Shown here in pieces: positions 2,955 through 61,998 of a DNA stretch of 64,000 bases. This DNA comes from Marixanthomonas ophiurae (GTDB lineage Bacteria > Bacteroidota > Bacteroidia > Flavobacteriales > Flavobacteriaceae): positions 620,001 through 684,000 of the forward strand of contig NZ_QVID01000001.1 of the NCBI RefSeq assembly GCF_003413745.1. Reading direction: 5' to 3'. Both the position numbers and the translations under genes were made by a program. The notes beneath the pieces were generated by a model. The model had not been told where the DNA came from, did no database searches, and worked only from the letters and a program-made list of their open reading frames with translations. The first letter of the stretch is position 1; each line of letters opens with the position of its first letter.

Positions 2955-4877
2955 ATGAAAAAATCTCTACTTACCCTATTAATTTTAGCGTGCACACAAG
3001 TATTTGCTCAAACACCATGCAATAATGGTATGGCTGGTCAATATCCTTGCAATGGCTATGATTTACAGTCACGCGTTTCACTTTCTGACATGAATGCGAA
3101 TGCGGCAAACGATTCTTGGGGTTGGACAGATCCTCAAGATGGAAAAGAATATGCCATAATAGGTTTAGAAGGCGGCACTACTTTTATTGATATTTCAAAC
3201 CCAACAAACCCAATTTATTTAGGAAAATTACCAACACACAGTTTTAGTAGTAACTGGAGAGATGTAAAAACATATAACAACCATGCCTTTATAGTTAGTG
3301 AAGATTTTTCACACGGTATGCAAGTTTTTGATTTAACTCGATTGCGAAATGTATCAAATCCACCCGTAACATTTACAGAAGATGCCCATTACGATGGGTT
3401 TGGCAATGCACATAATATTGTAATTAATGAAGACTCAGGTTATGCCTACGCAGTTGGGACATCTACATATAGCGGAGGCTCTCATTTTATAAACATACAA
3501 GACCCTACAAACCCCGTTGCTGCTGGTGGTTTTGGAGGTGACGGATACACTCATGATGCACAAGTTATAACTTATAATGGACCAGACAGCGATTATACTG
3601 GCCGTGAAATTTTACTAAGTAGTAGTGGAAATGAAAACTACGTTTCTATTGTAGATGTAACCGATAAAGCAAATCCTCAAAGTATTTCCACAATTAGTTA
3701 CCTTAATTCCAGTTATACACACCAAGGTTGGTTTACAGAAGATCAACGCTATTTTATACTTGGTGACGAAATAGATGAGCAAGATTTTGGATTTAACACT
3801 AGAACAATCATATTTGATCTGACCGATCTTGACAATCCAGTATTGGATTTTGAGCATTTTGGAGAAACCGAAGCAACCGACCATAATGGATACGTACTTG
3901 GAGACAACTATTATCTAGCTAATTATGCTGCTGGTTTAAGAGTACTCGATATTTCAGATATTGCGAATGGAAATATTTCCGAAGTAGGATACTTTGACTC
4001 ATTTAGTGCTCATAATAGTGTTGGATATGAAGGGGTGTGGAATGTATATCCATACTTAGGAAGTGGCAATATTATAATTAGTGATCGCGTAGGAGGATTG
4101 TTTGTTGTAAAATCATCAGCTCCAGATACCACGGATCCAGTTGCTATTTGCCAGAATACAAGCGTATCCTTAGATTCAAACGGAGAAATAATTATTGATC
4201 CCGCTTTACTGGACGGAGGCTCAAGCGATGATAGCGGTTCTTTCTCATTGTCCTTGAGTGAAAACACATTTACCTGTTCAGATATAGGAGAAAACACGGT
4301 TACCTTAACCGTAACAGACCCTTCAGGAAATACCGATGCTTGTACAGCTATAATCACTATAGAAGATAACACAGATCCAATAATAACGTGTACAACAGAC
4401 ACAACTGTTGAATATGATTCTGGAGCCAGTTTTTATACGTTACCTAATTATGAGGCAGAAGGTTTAGTACTTACAATAGATAATTGTTCTCAAAATCCCA
4501 CCGTTACACAAACCCCGGTAGCTGGAACAGAACTTACAGAAGGTATATACACCATTGATTTTCAGTCTGAAGACGCTGCTGGAAATACCGGAAACTGTTC
4601 ATTTGAGTTAACCGTAATAGAAGAATTATCTATTAATGATAATACTTTTGAAAACAGCATTAAAGTGTTCCCGGTACCTGCTTTAAATGAAATAAACATC
4701 ACTTCGGAAAACAAAACAATAGAATTTATTGATGTTTATGATATTATGGGGAAAAAGGTTTATACCGAAAAGAACATCAACACCACTAAAAAAACAATAA
4801 ACATCTCAAGCTTTTCAAAAGGAATGTATTTTTTATCAATTAATAATAAGGCAACCAAAAAAATTGTAAAAAAATAA
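2955..4877 (+). CDS. choice-of-anchor B family beta-propeller protein with HYR-like domains and T9SS sorting domain
   Basis: A 640-residue secreted protein. Residues 1-19 are a signal peptide ending VFAQ. Residues 45-385 form seven repeats of about 45-55 residues of the LVIVD/choice-of-anchor B kind, each with a FIDIS or VLDIS-like strand. Residues about 390-560 contain one or two Ig-like/HYR segments (TDPVAICQN, EDNTDPIITC, AAGNTGNCSFEL). Residues about 565-640 are a type A T9SS C-terminal sorting domain (VFPVPALNE, YDIMGKKV, ending KKIVKK), so it should be exported through T9SS to the surface. The blades start with Trp or His at equivalent positions (see findings). It heads a five-gene cluster and has a shorter paralogue immediately downstream. 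Function unknown. Confidence 0.85.
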   Translation: MKKSLLTLLILACTQVFAQTPCNNGMAGQYPCNGYDLQSRVSLSDMNANAANDSWGWTDPQDGKEYAIIGLEGGTTFIDISNPTNPIYLGKLPTHSFSSNWRDVKTYNNHAFIVSEDFSHGMQVFDLTRLRNVSNPPVTFTEDAHYDGFGNAHNIVINEDSGYAYAVGTSTYSGGSHFINIQDPTNPVAAGGFGGDGYTHDAQVITYNGPDSDYTGREILLSSSGNENYVSIVDVTDKANPQSISTISYLNSSYTHQGWFTEDQRYFILGDEIDEQDFGFNTRTIIFDLTDLDNPVLDFEHFGETEATDHNGYVLGDNYYLANYAAGLRVLDISDIANGNISEVGYFDSFSAHNSVGYEGVWNVYPYLGSGNIIISDRVGGLFVVKSSAPDTTDPVAICQNTSVSLDSNGEIIIDPALLDGGSSDDSGSFSLSLSENTFTCSDIGENTVTLTVTDPSGNTDACTAIITIEDNTDPIITCTTDTTVEYDSGASFYTLPNYEAEGLVLTIDNCSQNPTVTQTPVAGTELTEGIYTIDFQSEDAAGNTGNCSFELTVIEELSINDNTFENSIKVFPVPALNEINITSENKTIEFIDVYDIMGKKVYTEKNINTTKKTINISSFSKGMYFLSINNKATKKIVKK

Positions 4878-57203: not shown

Positions 57204-57899
57204 CTACTTTTTTTTATCCCAATACACATAGACGCCAAAAGCAACTAAACAGACCAAGGAGCCCCACAACAATCCATTTTTTAAACTGTCGGTGTTTTGC
57301 CCTACAATAGCTATAAAGATAGTCAATGGTGTAATGCCCAACATGGTGGCACCAATAAAACGCCAATAGCCCATATTCAAGATCCCACCAACAAAACTAA
57401 TTGCGTCGTTAGACAAAAATGGATTTATACGGGTTACCACAACAGCCCAAAAACCATAATCTTCAATAAAACCTTCGATTTTCTGTTCGGTTTTTCCTCC
57501 GATAATTTTTTCTACCAAGATTTCACCAAAATAATTACCGATGGCATAGCCTACTGAAGATGCCGTAAATACGGATAGTAAAATGATTAAACTTCCCCAG
57601 AGGGGTCCATATGCCAAAACCGAAACAACCATAAGTGCTACAGAAGGAATTACAATTAAAAACATTTGAACCACCATCGCTAAGACAAGCACCACCGGTC
57701 CCAGCCAACCAAAGCCGGAAACCCACTCCTCTATACGTTTTTCATCATTACTGGTAAGAACATTCCAAGCTTCGGTAAAAAACTGTTCAACAGAAGGAAT
57801 TGTAAAATAACAGATAACCAAAGTAGCCACCAATGCAATTGAAACATACAAAGGCAAGCGTCCTTTGCTTTTTGAAGAATCGGTGTCGTTGTTACTCAT
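57204..57899 (-). CDS. VTT (TVP38/TMEM64/DedA-like) membrane protein
   Basis: A 231-residue membrane protein of the SNARE-associated/VTT family. Helices near 15-35, 60-95, 90-115, 150-175, 185-205 and 208-225. The central segment has FGWLGPVVLVLAMVVQMFLIVIPS, GYAIGNYFGEILVEK and RINPFLSNDAISFVGGILNMGYWRFIGATMLG, the conserved re-entrant loops. Members affect lipid flipping or membrane stability. It is the last gene of a three-gene set behind the PepSY-like lipoprotein. Inner membrane. Confidence 0.88.
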   Translation of the reverse strand: MSNNDTDSSKSKGRLPLYVSIALVATLVICYFTIPSVEQFFTEAWNVLTSNDEKRIEEWVSGFGWLGPVVLVLAMVVQMFLIVIPSVALMVVSVLAYGPLWGSLIILLSVFTASSVGYAIGNYFGEILVEKIIGGKTEQKIEGFIEDYGFWAVVVTRINPFLSNDAISFVGGILNMGYWRFIGATMLGITPLTIFIAIVGQNTDSLKNGLLWGSLVCLVAFGVYVYWDKKK

Positions 57900-57915: not shown

Positions 57916-58794
57916 TTATTTCAATTCTACTTTTAAAATACTAGGCACGCCGCCTGTTGCTTCATTAGAAATATACAACGTCCCGTCTGGAGAAAAAGTA
58001 ATCCCTTCGGGTTGATAAAAAACCTTATTATTTAACGGATATTCTTTTTTTACGGAACCATTAGAGTTTACAATTAGTATTCTGGGTTTTGTACCTTGAA
58101 GCACGTAGATTTCTTTTGTTTTAGGATGAATGGCAATATCTGAAGGGCGGATTTTTTTCAGCGTTTTTTGTAAATCGGCATCTGTTGCGGTGATTAATAA
58201 AACTGGTTTTTCTTGTAATGTTTTTGTATCCAAATTATAACCGTAAATGCCCCTGCCGCCATTGTCAAAAGGTTCATGGTCTTTAGCCATTAGTAAGAGC
58301 CTGTTGTTTTCTTGATCGGCCAAAAGCGTTTCGATATTGTTTTTTTCTGAAAGGGGTAGCTCGTATTGATTAAAGACGGGTTCTTCCCCCAAAAAGTCAA
58401 GCAATTCAAAAATTTCACCGTCACTACGTACCACATACATATTTTCGCCCATTAAGGCTAATCCTTCATAATCGCCATCGCCTGCAAATTTCACTTGACC
58501 GTCCAGTTTTTTTGTTTCCAAATTATAGAAAAACACAATTCCTACTTCGTCTTGAATACAGGCAATGCGGCCATCTTTAAGCCACACGATTCCTGAAATT
58601 TCATCCAGTATAGAAGGCAGTTCCCAACTTTCAATCACTTCTTGTGTAGAGTCTAATGCAATCCGTTTTTTCTCGATGCGGGTTTTATAAAAATGGTAAA
58701 ATAAAAAAGATACAACTATTACTACAACAGCAAGAATGGCCACTATTTTATTCATGTGCTTATTCATATATTTTCTTGTTTTGTTAAGTTCCAT
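57916..58794 (-). CDS. SdiA-regulated-domain propeller protein
   Basis: A 292-residue protein with one N-terminal membrane segment (about 19-38) followed by a propeller of the SdiA-regulated type: LPSILDEISGIVWLKDGRIACIQDEVGIVFFYN, GDGDYEGLALMGENMYVVRSDGEIFEL, LLLMAKDHEPFDNGGRGIYG, KKIRPSDIAIHPKTKEIYVLQG and YQPEGITFSPDGTLYISNEATG. This matches the E. coli YjiK group. The role is unclear. I chose the ATG at 58794, 2 bases after the PepSY gene's stop; a TTG 12 bases earlier would overlap that gene. Second in the operon. Confidence 0.85.
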   Translation of the reverse strand: MELNKTRKYMNKHMNKIVAILAVVVIVVSFLFYHFYKTRIEKKRIALDSTQEVIESWELPSILDEISGIVWLKDGRIACIQDEVGIVFFYNLETKKLDGQVKFAGDGDYEGLALMGENMYVVRSDGEIFELLDFLGEEPVFNQYELPLSEKNNIETLLADQENNRLLLMAKDHEPFDNGGRGIYGYNLDTKTLQEKPVLLITATDADLQKTLKKIRPSDIAIHPKTKEIYVLQGTKPRILIVNSNGSVKKEYPLNNKVFYQPEGITFSPDGTLYISNEATGGVPSILKVELK

Positions 58795-58796
58795 TT

Positions 58797-59243
58797 TTAA
58801 TCCCAATAAGAAATGTTAGTAACTTGCCCTTTTAAATCTATCACCTTTTTAAGGTCTTTAAAAGATTTTTCTATTTCAATTTGATAATATTCCTTGTTGT
58901 CTATAAAAAGCAACTCTACATCATCTATTTCTGCATCTGGATGCGTTAATGAAATAGATTTTTTTACCGCTTCAGGTAGTTGCTCGTTGTTTACTTCATA
59001 TTTATACTTTAAAATCTCTCCTTTGGAATTTAATTTTGCAGTATAATCTACATCCTCTTTTTCAAACTCAACTATAAAAAATTCATCCGATTTTTCCCAT
59101 TCTCTGTCCGTTGTATTTAAAAAACTCACTTTAAGGGCGTTAACCACTACAGATGGTACTTGATTTTCATCAATATCAATATCGCTTTCACAAGCAAAAC
59201 TTATGAGTGCTATAGTGATAAGTAAGAGTGTTTTTTTAAACAT
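58797..59243 (-). CDS. PepSY-like lipoprotein (BLIP-like family), first gene of operon
   Basis: A 148-residue lipoprotein (lipobox SFAC, Cys18 from the ATG at 59243). Two repeats of a PepSY-like unit are visible: VPSVVVNALKVSFLNTTDREWEKSDEFFIVEFEKEDVDYTAKLNSKGEIL and LPEAVKKSISLTHPDAEIDDVELLFIDNKEYYQIEIE. Related small exported proteins are often found beside two-component genes in Bacteroidota. The shared operator-like motif (59271-59304) lies upstream, and the -7 placement (59257-59264) favours the ATG at 59243 over one 9 bases earlier. Function unknown, likely an envelope inhibitor or sensor. Confidence 0.82.
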   Translation of the reverse strand: MFKKTLLLITIALISFACESDIDIDENQVPSVVVNALKVSFLNTTDREWEKSDEFFIVEFEKEDVDYTAKLNSKGEILKYKYEVNNEQLPEAVKKSISLTHPDAEIDDVELLFIDNKEYYQIEIEKSFKDLKKVIDLKGQVTNISYWD

Positions 59244-59256
59244 TTGTATCATAATA

Positions 59257-59304
59257 CAAAAATGAGCTACAAAACTGTAAAGAAATAGGAATTACAATGT
59301 TTAA
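59257..59304 (-). promoter_or_regulatory. predicted regulated promoter of the PepSY lipoprotein operon
   Basis: On the minus strand a 34-base motif (59304-59271) contains TTAAACAT, ATTCC and TTCTTTACAGTTTT, and ends 14 bases before the G of a weak -7 element, CATTTTTG (59264-59257). The same motif with the same 14-base spacing is found before the other PepSY-like gene at 61352-61399. Confidence 0.65.
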
Positions 59305-59347
59305 GGATGGTTTTTAAGAAATCTTTAAACTTCGTTTATACCACTTT

Positions 59348-60613
59348 CTAAAAGCGTATTGTAAAGGTATGAAGCTTTTTACTGTAATTATACTGAAGGT
59401 TGTATTGATATTTATCGACAATAGCTTTGGAAATTGCCAATCCTAATCCAGTAGATTTATTAGTAGTTTCACTTTTATAAAACCGAGAAAACAGTTGTTT
59501 AGAATTTAATTCTTTTTCTTCGGAAACATTACTAATCGCAACTAAAGTATCGTTTACTTCAATGATTACCTCCGTTTCAACCTTTCCATGCAACACCGCA
59601 TTTTTAATAAGGTTAGCAAATAGAATACTAGCTAAGTCGCGATTCATACTAATACTTAGCTGCGCATTTTCTTTTATTGTAAATTTTACTTGTTTGTGAG
59701 TAGCGAAATCTGAAAAGTCTTCAATTTGTTGATGCAAAAGTTTATTTACATCAACTTGATCTTTAGCCGTAAACTGTTTATTGTCAATTTTTGAAAGCAA
59801 TAGCAACGATTTATTTAACCGGGTAAGACGTTCTAAATTCTCTAAAGCTGAAATAAGTTTTACCGCCTGCTTTTCATGTAATTCGTTTTCTTCTAGAAAA
59901 AGTTCAATTTTATTAATGCTAATAGCTAAGGGTGTTTGCAATTCATGGGCTGCATTTTCAATAAATTGCTTTTGGCTGTTATAACTTTCTTTCGATTTTT
60001 CAAGTAATCTTTCTATACTTGTATTAAGTAGAGAAAACTCTTCAATATTGGTTTTCTGAAATTGTATTTCATCATTATTTTCAATACTAAACGTTTTTAA
60101 TTGTGCTACCAATTTGTAAAAAGGTCGCCATACTTTGCGTAAAAAAACATTGTTAAGCAGTAAAATACTTATTAAAAGAGCGACATATAGGATGATTAAA
60201 TACAAAAGCAGGTTTTGTAATTGATCGTCTTCTTCTACCATAGAAGTAACCACCTTTATTTTATAATAGTCCCCGTTTTGTTTAAACACACTTTCCAATA
60301 ACCGAACAGGCTCGTAATCCTCTTCGTTTTGCATATACATTATGGTATCACGGTATTGGTCTTTAACGTTTTTTATTTCTGAAAAAGGAACTTTTTTAAT
60401 CGTATACCCACTTTCATCAAAGTTCTGCTTACGTAAAATGGTGCTGTCTTTCTCGGCATATTGAATGACCAACATTTTTTGGTTCTCTAACCCATCGTCC
60501 AAGCTATCATAGATCTCATCGAACATTGCATAATAAAACAACACAGCCCAAACCGAAATAAGCACCAGCAACAGAATTGAAAAATACGTAGTCGTGTAGT
60601 TTAGCAGTTTCAT
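59348..60613 (-). CDS. sensor histidine kinase
   Basis: A 421-residue kinase: transmembrane helices about 8-30 and 134-156 enclose a periplasmic sensor domain of about 100 residues rich in acidic residues; then a HAMP-like region (about 158-210), the HisKA box with His223 in ENAAHELQTPL, and a HATPase domain with FANLIKNAVLHG (N box) and KSTGLGLAISKAIV (G box). It phosphorylates the response regulator whose gene it overlaps by 4 bases. The sensor domain resembles no named domain to me. Inner membrane. Confidence 0.93.
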   Translation of the reverse strand: MKLLNYTTTYFSILLLVLISVWAVLFYYAMFDEIYDSLDDGLENQKMLVIQYAEKDSTILRKQNFDESGYTIKKVPFSEIKNVKDQYRDTIMYMQNEEDYEPVRLLESVFKQNGDYYKIKVVTSMVEEDDQLQNLLLYLIILYVALLISILLLNNVFLRKVWRPFYKLVAQLKTFSIENNDEIQFQKTNIEEFSLLNTSIERLLEKSKESYNSQKQFIENAAHELQTPLAISINKIELFLEENELHEKQAVKLISALENLERLTRLNKSLLLLSKIDNKQFTAKDQVDVNKLLHQQIEDFSDFATHKQVKFTIKENAQLSISMNRDLASILFANLIKNAVLHGKVETEVIIEVNDTLVAISNVSEEKELNSKQLFSRFYKSETTNKSTGLGLAISKAIVDKYQYNLQYNYSKKLHTFTIRF

Positions 60614-61287
60614 ATAACTTCCAGTTTATAGCCCATTCCGTACACCGATTTTATAGTTATATCTGCTTTGTTTGCTTCAAGTTTTTTCCGAAGATTTTTA
60701 ATTTGTGAGTAGATAAAATCAAAGCTGTCCGTTTGGTCTATATGGTCGCCCCAAACGTGTTCTGCCAAAGCGGTTTTACGTACTAATCTTTTTTTATTTG
60801 AAACAAAATATAGCAATACATCAAATTCCTTACGGTTTAATTCAATCTCGGTATTGTCTATTGTTACTTCTCTGGTTTCTGGATTAATGGAAAAATTTCC
60901 CAATTTTATATTGGTTTTTCCTTCAAATTGATTGCGCCTTAACACAGCCTTTATTCTCGCGTTTAATTCGGCCATATGGAATGGTTTTGGCAAATAATCA
61001 TCTGCACCAAAATCCAGTCCTTTTAATTTATCGTCCAAAGAATTTTTTGCCGAAACAATGATAACAGAATCTTGTAATTCCTTTTTTTTAATTTCTTTCA
61101 ATAAATCGAGTCCGTTGCCATCGGGCAATCCAATGTCCAATAAAATACAATCGTAGTTATACACCCCTATTTTTTCTCTTGCATTAGTAAAATTAGTAGC
61201 AGTTTCGACAATATATGATTCCTTTTCTAACGATTCTTGTATGTTTTGAAGCATATCCTGCTCGTCTTCTACGATTAAAATTTTCAT
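60610..61287 (-). CDS. OmpR/PhoB-family response regulator
   Basis: A 225-residue regulator: receiver domain 1-115 with acidic pocket VEDEQ, phosphorylation site Asp51 (LLDIGLPDG) and Lys near 101 (YLPKPF), and a winged-helix output domain about 125-225 (NRKEFDVLLYFVSNKKRLVRKTALAEHVWG, IKSVYGMGYKLEV). Followed by the kinase with a 4-base overlap. It is a likely binder of the two matching motifs at 59271-59304 and 61352-61385, which hold direct repeats 22 bases apart as expected for this family. Cytoplasmic. Confidence 0.93.
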   Translation of the reverse strand: MKILIVEDEQDMLQNIQESLEKESYIVETATNFTNAREKIGVYNYDCILLDIGLPDGNGLDLLKEIKKKELQDSVIIVSAKNSLDDKLKGLDFGADDYLPKPFHMAELNARIKAVLRRNQFEGKTNIKLGNFSINPETREVTIDNTEIELNRKEFDVLLYFVSNKKRLVRKTALAEHVWGDHIDQTDSFDFIYSQIKNLRKKLEANKADITIKSVYGMGYKLEVI

Positions 61288-61351
61288 CTCAATTCAATTT
61301 ACCGTTAAAAATACAGCTGAAATCTATAAAGAAATGGGATTATGGTCATTC

Positions 61352-61385
61352 TTTTACATCTCCATTCCAAATTCTTTACAGTTTT
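61352..61385 (+). promoter_or_regulatory. candidate response-regulator binding site before the PepSY-like gene
   Basis: Contains TTTACA at 61353-61358 and again at 61375-61380, exactly 22 bases apart, and TTCTTTACAGTTTT (61372-61385). Matches 26 of 34 positions of the minus-strand site at 59271-59304, including a 14-base identical block and ATTCC. Confidence 0.65.
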
Positions 61386-61406
61386 AGGTCTTTACTTTGA
61401 CCTAAA
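61383..61406 (+). promoter_or_regulatory. dyad over the -7 region of the PepSY-like gene
   Basis: TTTAGGTC (61383-61390) and GACCTAAA (61399-61406) are exact 8-base inverted repeats; the intervening sequence holds TTACTTTG (61392-61399), a -7 element with one mismatch to TAnnTTTG. A second regulator or an mRNA hairpin could act here. Confidence 0.45.
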
Positions 61407-61423
61407 CATAAAAAAGAAATACT

Positions 61424-61864
61424 ATGAAAACTTTAAAATTTTTATTGGTTGCATTATTTGTAACAACTGTTGCAACCGCACAGGATTTAAAACAAACTGA
61501 TGTCCCTAACAGTGTTCTTTCTAACTTTCAGAAAGAAAACCCAAATGCTACAGATGTAGAGTGGGAAAAAGAAATGGACAATTACAAAGTAGAGTTTGAT
61601 CAAGACAGTCAAGAATACGAAATCTGGTACTCGACTTCTGGCACTATGGTTAAAATGGAACAAGATATTACTGAAAACATGCTTCCAAAAGCCATTACAA
61701 GCGTTATTAGCAGCAAGTATTCTGGATACAAAGTAGATGATTGTGAAAAGATAACTAAAGACAATAAAACTACGTATAAAGTGGAGTTAGAAAATGGGAC
61801 AGATGAAATGGATGTTGTCTTTAACGAAACTGGAAAAGTAGAAAGTGAAATGAACGACAACTAA
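61424..61864 (+). CDS. secreted PepSY-like protein (BLIP-like family)
   Basis: A 146-residue protein with signal peptide 1-20 (ends VATAQD). Two PepSY-like units: VPNSVLSNFQKENPNATDVEWEKEMDNYKVEFDQDSQEYEIWYSTSGTMVKM and LPKAITSVISSKYSGYKVDDCEKITKDNKTTYKVELENGTDEMDVVFNETGKVES. It has no lipobox, so it should be soluble in the periplasm. It is transcribed divergently from the response regulator and has the same type of upstream site as the PepSY lipoprotein operon, so it is a likely target of that system. Function unknown. Confidence 0.85.
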   Translation: MKTLKFLLVALFVTTVATAQDLKQTDVPNSVLSNFQKENPNATDVEWEKEMDNYKVEFDQDSQEYEIWYSTSGTMVKMEQDITENMLPKAITSVISSKYSGYKVDDCEKITKDNKTTYKVELENGTDEMDVVFNETGKVESEMNDN

Positions 61865-61886: not shown

Positions 61887-61924
61887 AATAAAAAGCCTTA
61901 CAGAATTCTGTAAGGCTTTTTTTG
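61887..61924. terminator. terminator of the PepSY-like gene
   Basis: Perfect 16-base palindromic arms (61890-61905 with 61906-61921), A-rich on the left and T-rich on the right; can also stop transcripts from the tRNA-Asn side. Confidence 0.88.
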
Positions 61925-61998
61925 CTCCTCCACTTGGACTCGAACCAAGGACACCCTGATTAACAGTCAGGTGCTCTAACCAACTGAGCTATGGAGGA
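61925..61998 (-). tRNA. tRNA-Asn (anticodon GUU)
   Basis: 74 bases: acceptor TCCTCCA/TGGAGGA, D-arm GCTC...GAGC, anticodon stem with loop CTGTTAA (anticodon GUU), T-arm with TTCGAGT, discriminator G. CCA not encoded. A -7 element lies about 69 bases upstream. Confidence 0.97.

Follow-up and report, generated by a model that had tools for sequence, protein, structure and literature searches.

The closest described mechanism to the one proposed here is the DbfQRS system of Vibrio cholerae, in which the pathway is activated by damage to the outer membrane and the small periplasmic PepSY protein DbfQ binds to the DbfS sensor domain (PMC12714742). That work, which used a reporter for the dbfQRS promoter, also describes positive feedback in the cascade. 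Proteobacteria, Terrabacteria, and Fusobacteria are the groups mentioned in the survey of that paper. Its main text does not contain the string "Bacteroid", and as far as known from this source, Bacteroidota were not reported. Here, we describe a two-component locus from the flavobacterium Marixanthomonas ophiurae. It lies in a stretch of 64,000 nucleotides (assembly GCF_003413745.1, contig NZ_QVID01000001.1, positions 620,001 to 684,000), which we call the window and from the first nucleotide of which coordinates are counted. The locus appears to be a DbfQRS-like module with an OmpR/PhoB-type operator that can be mapped on Bacteroidota promoters. Three copies of this operator are found, through which the response regulator very probably controls its own gene and those of two PepSY-like proteins, called PepSY-A and PepSY-B.

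Operators of the PhoB/PmrA (BasR) type are 11-bp head-to-tail repeats located just upstream of the core promoter, and PhoB, when bound at pho boxes, stands in for a promoter element and recruits RNA polymerase. The promoter consensus of Bacteroidota consists of a −7 element (TAnnTTTG) and a −33 element. A further point of comparison is PorXY of Porphyromonas gingivalis, the genes of which are far apart (PMC4800418, PMC5005315). The PepSY_like family PF11396 (DUF2874, BLIP-like proteins) includes BVU2987, for which a possible inhibitory function has been proposed, the precise function of such proteins being described as not elucidated; the main text of that paper mentions neither "two-component" nor "histidine kinase" (PMC2954215). 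A PF11396 regulon under an OmpR-family regulator in Bacteroidota was not found among the open-licence papers listed, as judged by titles and the beginnings of abstracts.

As in DbfQRS, a histidine kinase (59348–60613, minus strand), a response regulator (60610–61287, minus strand), and small secreted PepSY-type proteins are encoded together. Unlike in DbfQRS, there are two such proteins, PepSY-A (61424–61864, plus strand) and PepSY-B (58797–59252, minus strand), which are expressed from predicted promoters apart from the kinase operon, and the operator has been mapped by sequence only. Also, DbfQ was assigned to the Pfam family PepSY whereas only PF11396 is matched here at E ≤ 1e-3. The regulator shares the OmpR-family fold with PhoB and PmrA (BasR), and BasR is among its best solved relatives by sequence. 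Alignment of the recognition helices by eye shows a difference, with Gln in this regulator and His in BasR at the same position. The operator sequence is also different (TTCC/TTNCAG), and a Bacteroidota TAnnTTTG −7 element is found instead of a sigma-70 −10 element. Finally, the kinase belongs to an NCBIfam family named for PorY, but its partner is the adjacent OmpR-family regulator, with PepSY-like and other genes as targets, while porX is far from porY in P. gingivalis.

The strongest operator copy, ATTCCAAATTCTTTACAGTTTT (61364–61385, plus strand), precedes PepSY-A. It consists of two 11-bp direct repeats, scores 27.9 bits (genome E = 1.8e-7), ranks first in the window, and is followed by the −7 element TTACTTTG (61392–61399, plus strand). 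The copy preceding PepSY-B, ATTCCTATTTCTTTACAGTTTT (59271–59292, minus strand), scores 26.1 bits (E = 4.8e-5), ranks second in the window, and has the −7 element CATTTTTG at the same offset (59257–59264, minus strand). In a preliminary description, these two sites had been recognized as a pair of matching 34-mers (61352–61385, plus strand; 59304–59271, minus strand). Their coordinates and letters are correct and the match is real: 26 of 34 positions are identical, compared with a mean of 19.8 and a maximum of 23 for the best match in 200 dinucleotide shuffles of both upstream regions. The distance of 14 bases from the identical block to the G of the TTTG element was also reproduced in both copies. 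However, only about 22 bp of the 34 bases form the conserved core, and a third copy had been missed. This copy, AATCCCATTTCTTTATAGATTT (61320–61341, minus strand), precedes the regulator gene, scores 20.5 bits (E = 0.002), and ranks third in the window; its −7 element TATTTTTA (61306–61313, minus strand) has the same spacing as at the other sites. Each of the three −7 elements deviates from TAnnTTTG at one position. Because the regulator gene has its own operator, the case for autoregulation is now stronger than in the preliminary description. A 22-base period of TTTACA, which had been taken to reflect dimer geometry, is present in the window and its 98% relative (L075) and absent from the congener (L076), so that this proposal has to be abandoned; the real period is 11 bp.

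For comparison, we used 80 named loci from many Bacteroidota genera, which are the best 80 of at least 576 stretches confirmed in an alignment search with the kinase. A regulator gene similar to that of the window is next to or close to the kinase gene in all 80 loci (annotated gaps exceed 60 bases in L107 and L126), and 71 of the 80 have at least one PepSY-like gene in the DNA fetched. A motif obtained de novo from 175 upstream regions of relatives, aTTCCcAATTcTTTCCAGAtTt, reached a log-likelihood of 1618 compared with 106–127 for three shuffled sets, and is estimated to be present in 76% of the regions; the window and L075 had been left out of the training. The motif consists of two 11-bp direct repeats, as in operators of the OmpR/PhoB type, with a conserved core of about 22 bp. 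The corresponding matrix has 212 matches of at least 10 bits in 81 loci (window included) compared with 17 after these sequences had been shuffled once. This threshold is reached upstream of 75 of 96 PepSY-like genes and 60 of 82 regulator genes; these are mostly training regions, counted with L075 and without the window, and two of the 82 regulators are from second, distant systems (L097, L099). With a matrix derived exclusively from loci judged non-flavobacterial by their names (70 upstream regions from 35 loci; Pelobium and Flavisolibacter were confirmed to represent other classes), the three highest scores on either strand of the window are those of the operators of PepSY-A, PepSY-B, and the regulator gene, in this order (25.7, 23.9, and 19.6 bits; next 10.5).

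The promoter geometry is conserved as well. Across 170 sites of at least 18 bits, the columns 5′ of the operator are nearly random, and the one other strong element is TAnnTTTG, which is found downstream at a fixed offset and is followed by an A-rich stretch. With at most one mismatch, it is present at this offset for 118 of 164 sites (perfect in 16), compared with 0–4% when any other offset between 22 and 44 is taken (window and L075 excluded). The fixed −7 element downstream and the nearly random columns upstream together indicate that the operator sits where a −33 element would be expected. The activator-dependent weak promoters that had been proposed are compatible with this geometry and with −7 elements that are mostly one mismatch off consensus; activation itself is suggested by the sequence pattern.

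In the 3.3-Mb genome, the operator is confined to this locus. Model R1 (38 positions, built from 69 sites of relatives) has matches with E < 0.01 at the three described sites only, the next match having E = 0.06. This agrees with the small, self-contained regulon that had been suggested. A scan with a consensus spelled from the window had given 14 matches with up to three mismatches (three of them the locus sites) compared with six in a reversed control; it was too permissive and was replaced by model R1. Among 100 genomes from the family, the operator (E ≤ 1e-3) was found in 16, namely in 15 of 21 having a kinase above the PorY-family cut-off compared with one of 79 lacking it (Fisher p = 3e-12). 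Matches with E values from 1e-3 to 0.01 in nine further family genomes without a kinase above the cut-off were taken as background. Among 247 genomes from the phylum, scanned with stricter large-search filters that lose some weak matches, the operator (E ≤ 1e-3) was found in eight, all of which are among the 50 with a kinase at E ≤ 1e-95.

The co-occurrence becomes sharper when the recognition helix of the regulator is considered. A helix survey covered 49 kinase loci, those with the better scores among the 78 distinct matches listed, and an adjacent OmpR-family regulator is encoded in all 49. In 22 of these, the helix has Gln at position 195 (Y[SYT]Q), as in the window regulator (DFIYSQIKNLRKKL). 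The operator (E ≤ 1e-3) is present in 21 of the 22 genomes of this class, and the remaining one (G332) has a 17.7-bit site. Operators outside the 1.5-kb flanks were found in two of the 22, one being about 1.6 kb off (G307) and one being unlinked and located before PepSY-like genes (G023). In contrast, the operator (E ≤ 1e-3) is present in none of the 27 genomes of the class with His195, where matrix values at the loci reach at most 16.2; second His-class copies (L271, L272) likewise lack it. All six kinase-positive family genomes without the operator belong to the His class. This class has a TTCA-type tandem repeat of its own, aaATTCAgaATTtcTTCAaAAT, with a log-likelihood of 200.8 compared with 59–73 for ten shuffles. 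It was derived from 29 loci (including L271 and L272) with 36 upstream regions, a few of which score near or below zero; only upstream DNA was used, since an earlier search that included coding DNA had returned the coding start of the regulator gene. As judged by eye, a −7-like element often lies downstream of the repeat at comparable spacing. Gln/TTCC and His/TTCA would represent a natural recognition-code pair differing by one residue and by one base per half-site. Other helix residues also covary visibly with columns of the operator (188 with column 15; 189 and 192 with column 18); this is confounded by descent and was not used.

Because the operator follows the recognition helix and is unique in the genome, it is very probably the adjacent regulator that binds the three sites and controls itself, PepSY-A, and a unit comprising PepSY-B, an SdiA-regulated-like gene (57916–58806, minus strand), and a VTT-domain gene (57204–57899, minus strand). 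The regulon proposed earlier, with PepSY-A and PepSY-B as members, is thereby retained and slightly enlarged. We have good confidence in the compact circuit as a whole, which would operate as follows. The kinase would phosphorylate the regulator, which as a head-to-tail dimer would bind the tandem 11-bp repeat TTCCnAATTnT TTNCAGNTTT just 5′ of a degenerate Bacteroidota −7 element. There, it would replace the −33 element and recruit RNA polymerase in the manner of PhoB at pho boxes, activating the promoters of the regulator-kinase operon (autoregulation), of PepSY-A, and of the PepSY-B unit. The exported PepSY-like proteins would probably feed back on the small periplasmic domain of the kinase, as DbfQ does on DbfS, and are thus likely to be feedback ligands; the signal may be envelope stress. 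For PepSY-like (BLIP-like) envelope proteins, the locus offers a predicted regulator together with an operator and a promoter geometry.

Several observations weigh against this circuit. The feedback by PepSY-like proteins is drawn by analogy, and PF11396 differs from the Pfam family of DbfQ. Two of the loci (L121, L128) are devoid of any site of at least 10 bits in the matrix scan. The association of Gln and His with the respective operators may reflect one historical change, because both classes are clades. The count of 15 of 21 kinase-positive family genomes includes several genomes that also provided training loci, and model R1 contains three sites from the congener L076. The one family genome with an operator but no kinase above the cut-off (G027) has a strong site before an SdiA-regulated-like gene (L225, 2660–2683; 241.6 bits to the window protein); a close regulator was not found in this genome, the best match having 34% identity, and the site is possibly an orphan remnant or the site of another regulator. 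With respect to targets, an operator in L122 precedes a gene for a PLP-dependent enzyme, and operators in G061 precede pectic-acid-lyase-like and Sde182-like genes besides a PepSY-like one (L219, L221); the PLP-dependent enzyme and the pectic-acid-lyase-like and Sde182-like genes are a poor fit to a simple envelope regulon.

An opposite sign of regulation, with the adjacent regulator blocking RNA polymerase at −33 until signalled, would equally place the operator over the expected −33 position. We consider such repression unlikely, since the upstream columns do not contain a separate −33-like element and the −7 is mostly one mismatch off consensus, both of which fit activation better. The site in G027, which has neither the kinase nor a close regulator, could also mean that another, unlinked regulator co-inherited with the locus binds the operator. 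This is very improbable given the distribution over 21 of 22 Gln195 but 0 of 27 His195 genomes and the autoregulatory site at the regulator's own promoter; moreover, a tandem 11-bp repeat is typical of an OmpR-family protein. That the 34-mers match merely through local duplication of PepSY genes together with their promoters might be suspected because PepSY-A and PepSY-B are paralogues (26% identity). We give this hardly any credence: sites also occur ahead of the regulator gene and of non-PepSY genes, relatives have kept the motif at fixed spacing, and it tracks the regulator helix, and the third site together with the wide conservation already contradicts it.

A different assignment follows from the kinase, which scores 513.3 bits to NCBIfam NF052314 "PorY family" (curated cut-off 350). 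It might be a true PorY that passes its signal to PorX and regulates type IX secretion, the adjacent OmpR-family pair being incidental. In P. gingivalis, where porX and porY are described as orphan genes, PorY has been shown to transfer phosphate to PorX (PMC4800418), and the M. ophiurae genome codes for a PglZ-domain protein (about 520 aa) that is probably PorX. However, a PglZ match was found in 95 of the 100 family genomes but a kinase above the cut-off in only 21, which indicates that the kinase is not the general PorX partner in this family, with cross-talk being possible. An OmpR-family partner is present in all 80 relatives' loci and in all 49 loci of the helix survey, and within the genome, operators with E < 0.01 are restricted to this locus. 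Altogether, we regard a true PorY as improbable, the comparison set of kinases being one that does not contain P. gingivalis PorY.

The adjacent regulator as partner of the kinase would rather suggest that this kinase family usually has another role than the type IX secretion regulator after which it is named. Because NF052314 comprises kinase loci of two or more classes that differ in regulator helix and operator, the name "PorY family" may mislead annotation. A wider proposal, which we put forward tentatively and rate at somewhat below an even chance, is that this family is mainly a phylum-wide envelope-sensing system. Its usual partner would be an adjacent OmpR-family regulator controlling PepSY-like feedback proteins, in two regulator classes with a matched change of protein–DNA specificity (Gln195/TTCC, His195/TTCA) and the same promoter geometry, and the PorY–PorX link of P. 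gingivalis would be a derived re-wiring. PorX of Flavobacterium johnsoniae is a CheY/alkaline-phosphatase-like protein (PMC10951265). Hemin stimulates PorX/PorY-dependent genes of P. gingivalis (PMC8050853), and the PepSY-like genes BT0922–BT0923 of Bacteroides thetaiotaomicron are among the genes tabulated as iron-dependent (PMC10434189); neither observation concerns this locus directly.

For 167 operator sites of at least 18 bits in the 80 relatives' loci, 79 are located before PepSY-like genes, 59 before regulator genes, 25 before other genes, and four before none; many matches initially classed as "other" result from mis-called ORF (open reading frame) starts or non-PepSY targets. SdiA-regulated-like genes are directly behind the operator in eight loci (L078, L081, L082, L083, L086, L088, L090, L094; 198–244 bits to the window protein) and also in L225 and L231. 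A VTT homologue follows the SdiA-like gene in L082, L092, L096, L223, and L231, and a VTT gene in L146 (313 bits) is behind an 18.3-bit site. The window order of PepSY-like, SdiA-like, and VTT genes behind one operator recurs in L092 and L096, and SdiA-like and VTT genes share one operator in L082 and L231. A gene in L137 that looks DedA-like by eye has no match to the window VTT protein at E ≤ 1e-10 and was not counted.

Further genes behind operators code for Porin_O_P in L092 (in L096 by eye), an HD-domain protein in L086, and an outer-membrane-type protein without a Pfam match. Before the gene for such an outer-membrane-type protein, several half-sites follow each other in 11-bp steps in L116 (7454–7499) and L119 (10161–10206). 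The protein of these two loci has a conserved motif resembling HAEP.[FY].DL[VI]RDLGARKGEKE, and its homologue in L110 has no Pfam match. Overall, the bias toward envelope genes is a trend read from these counts.

Operators unlinked to a kinase precede PepSY-like genes in three other genomes (L214, L215, L218; 92–128 bits); in one of them (G023; L214, 2428–3896), the operator is followed by three consecutive PepSY-like ORFs. The unlinked site in L216 precedes an SdiA-regulated-like gene (226.8 bits), a recount having rejected its placement inside an ORF. Other unlinked sites are located before a glycosyltransferase family 9 gene (L217) and before a short ORF followed by a VTT homologue split over two frames (L222). 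In L223 and L224, sites at 7–12 kb from the kinase precede PepSY-like genes, and a site adjoining the kinase in L227 precedes a PAP2 phosphatase gene. In the G061 species, an operator-like site is also found before an ORF of 566 aa (L220), and polysaccharide-related genes appear to have been recruited into the regulon (L219, L220, L221). A site inside an ORF in L228 may be a chance match.

The gene assignments in the window are supported by domain matches. The regulator has a receiver domain (PF00072 Response_reg, 103.5 bits) and a winged helix (PF00486 Trans_reg_C, 65 bits), which together with the tandem direct-repeat operator at about one helical turn (11-bp period) places it in the OmpR/PhoB family. 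Its gene overlaps that of the kinase. In the predicted kinase structure (mean pLDDT 82.5, pTM 0.51), an N-terminal helix is followed by a small domain of mixed strands (approximately residues 57–124), a second helix, and the catalytic core. A structure search with this model gave, among the best 50 of 1086 matches, mostly catalytic cores of kinases and photoreceptor kinases of chimeric or multidomain architecture, with a WalK–YycH integrative model at rank 2, and was not used as a source on the sensor domain.

PepSY-A matches PF11396 with 50.5 bits (gathering cut-off 28.3), and its N-terminus is signal-peptide-like by eye. Its predicted structure (pLDDT 91.6) matches the solved DUF2874/BLIP-like folds 3u1w, 4k61, 4ipb, 4fr9, and 4hbr, and the modelled fold thus resembles that of proteins such as BVU2987 (PMC2954215). 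PepSY-B appears to be a divergent relative with 26.0 bits (E = 1.2e-5), just below the cut-off, and has a lipoprotein-like N-terminus (LISFAC, by eye). PF11396 matches in the genome (E ≤ 0.01) are confined to these two genes. The SdiA-regulated/beta-propeller-like protein (PF06977, 37.2 bits) and the VTT-domain (DedA-like) membrane protein (PF09335, 79.1 bits) are encoded as the second and third gene behind PepSY-B; because the SdiA-like ORF overlaps PepSY-B when read from the TTG start listed for it, and 16 bases on the same strand separate it from the VTT gene, the three likely form one transcription unit.

Directly 3′ of PepSY-A, a perfect hairpin (AAAAAGCCTTACAG AATT CTGTAAGGCTTTTT) followed by a T run is found (61890–61923, plus strand), which resembles an intrinsic terminator, so that PepSY-A is probably monocistronic. 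A tRNA-Asn with anticodon gtt (61924–61998, minus strand; ARAGORN) is located just past PepSY-A. Stretches resembling it at other places in the genome explain five further matches of the search in which the hairpin appeared as a self-inverse match (query positions 3328–3395).

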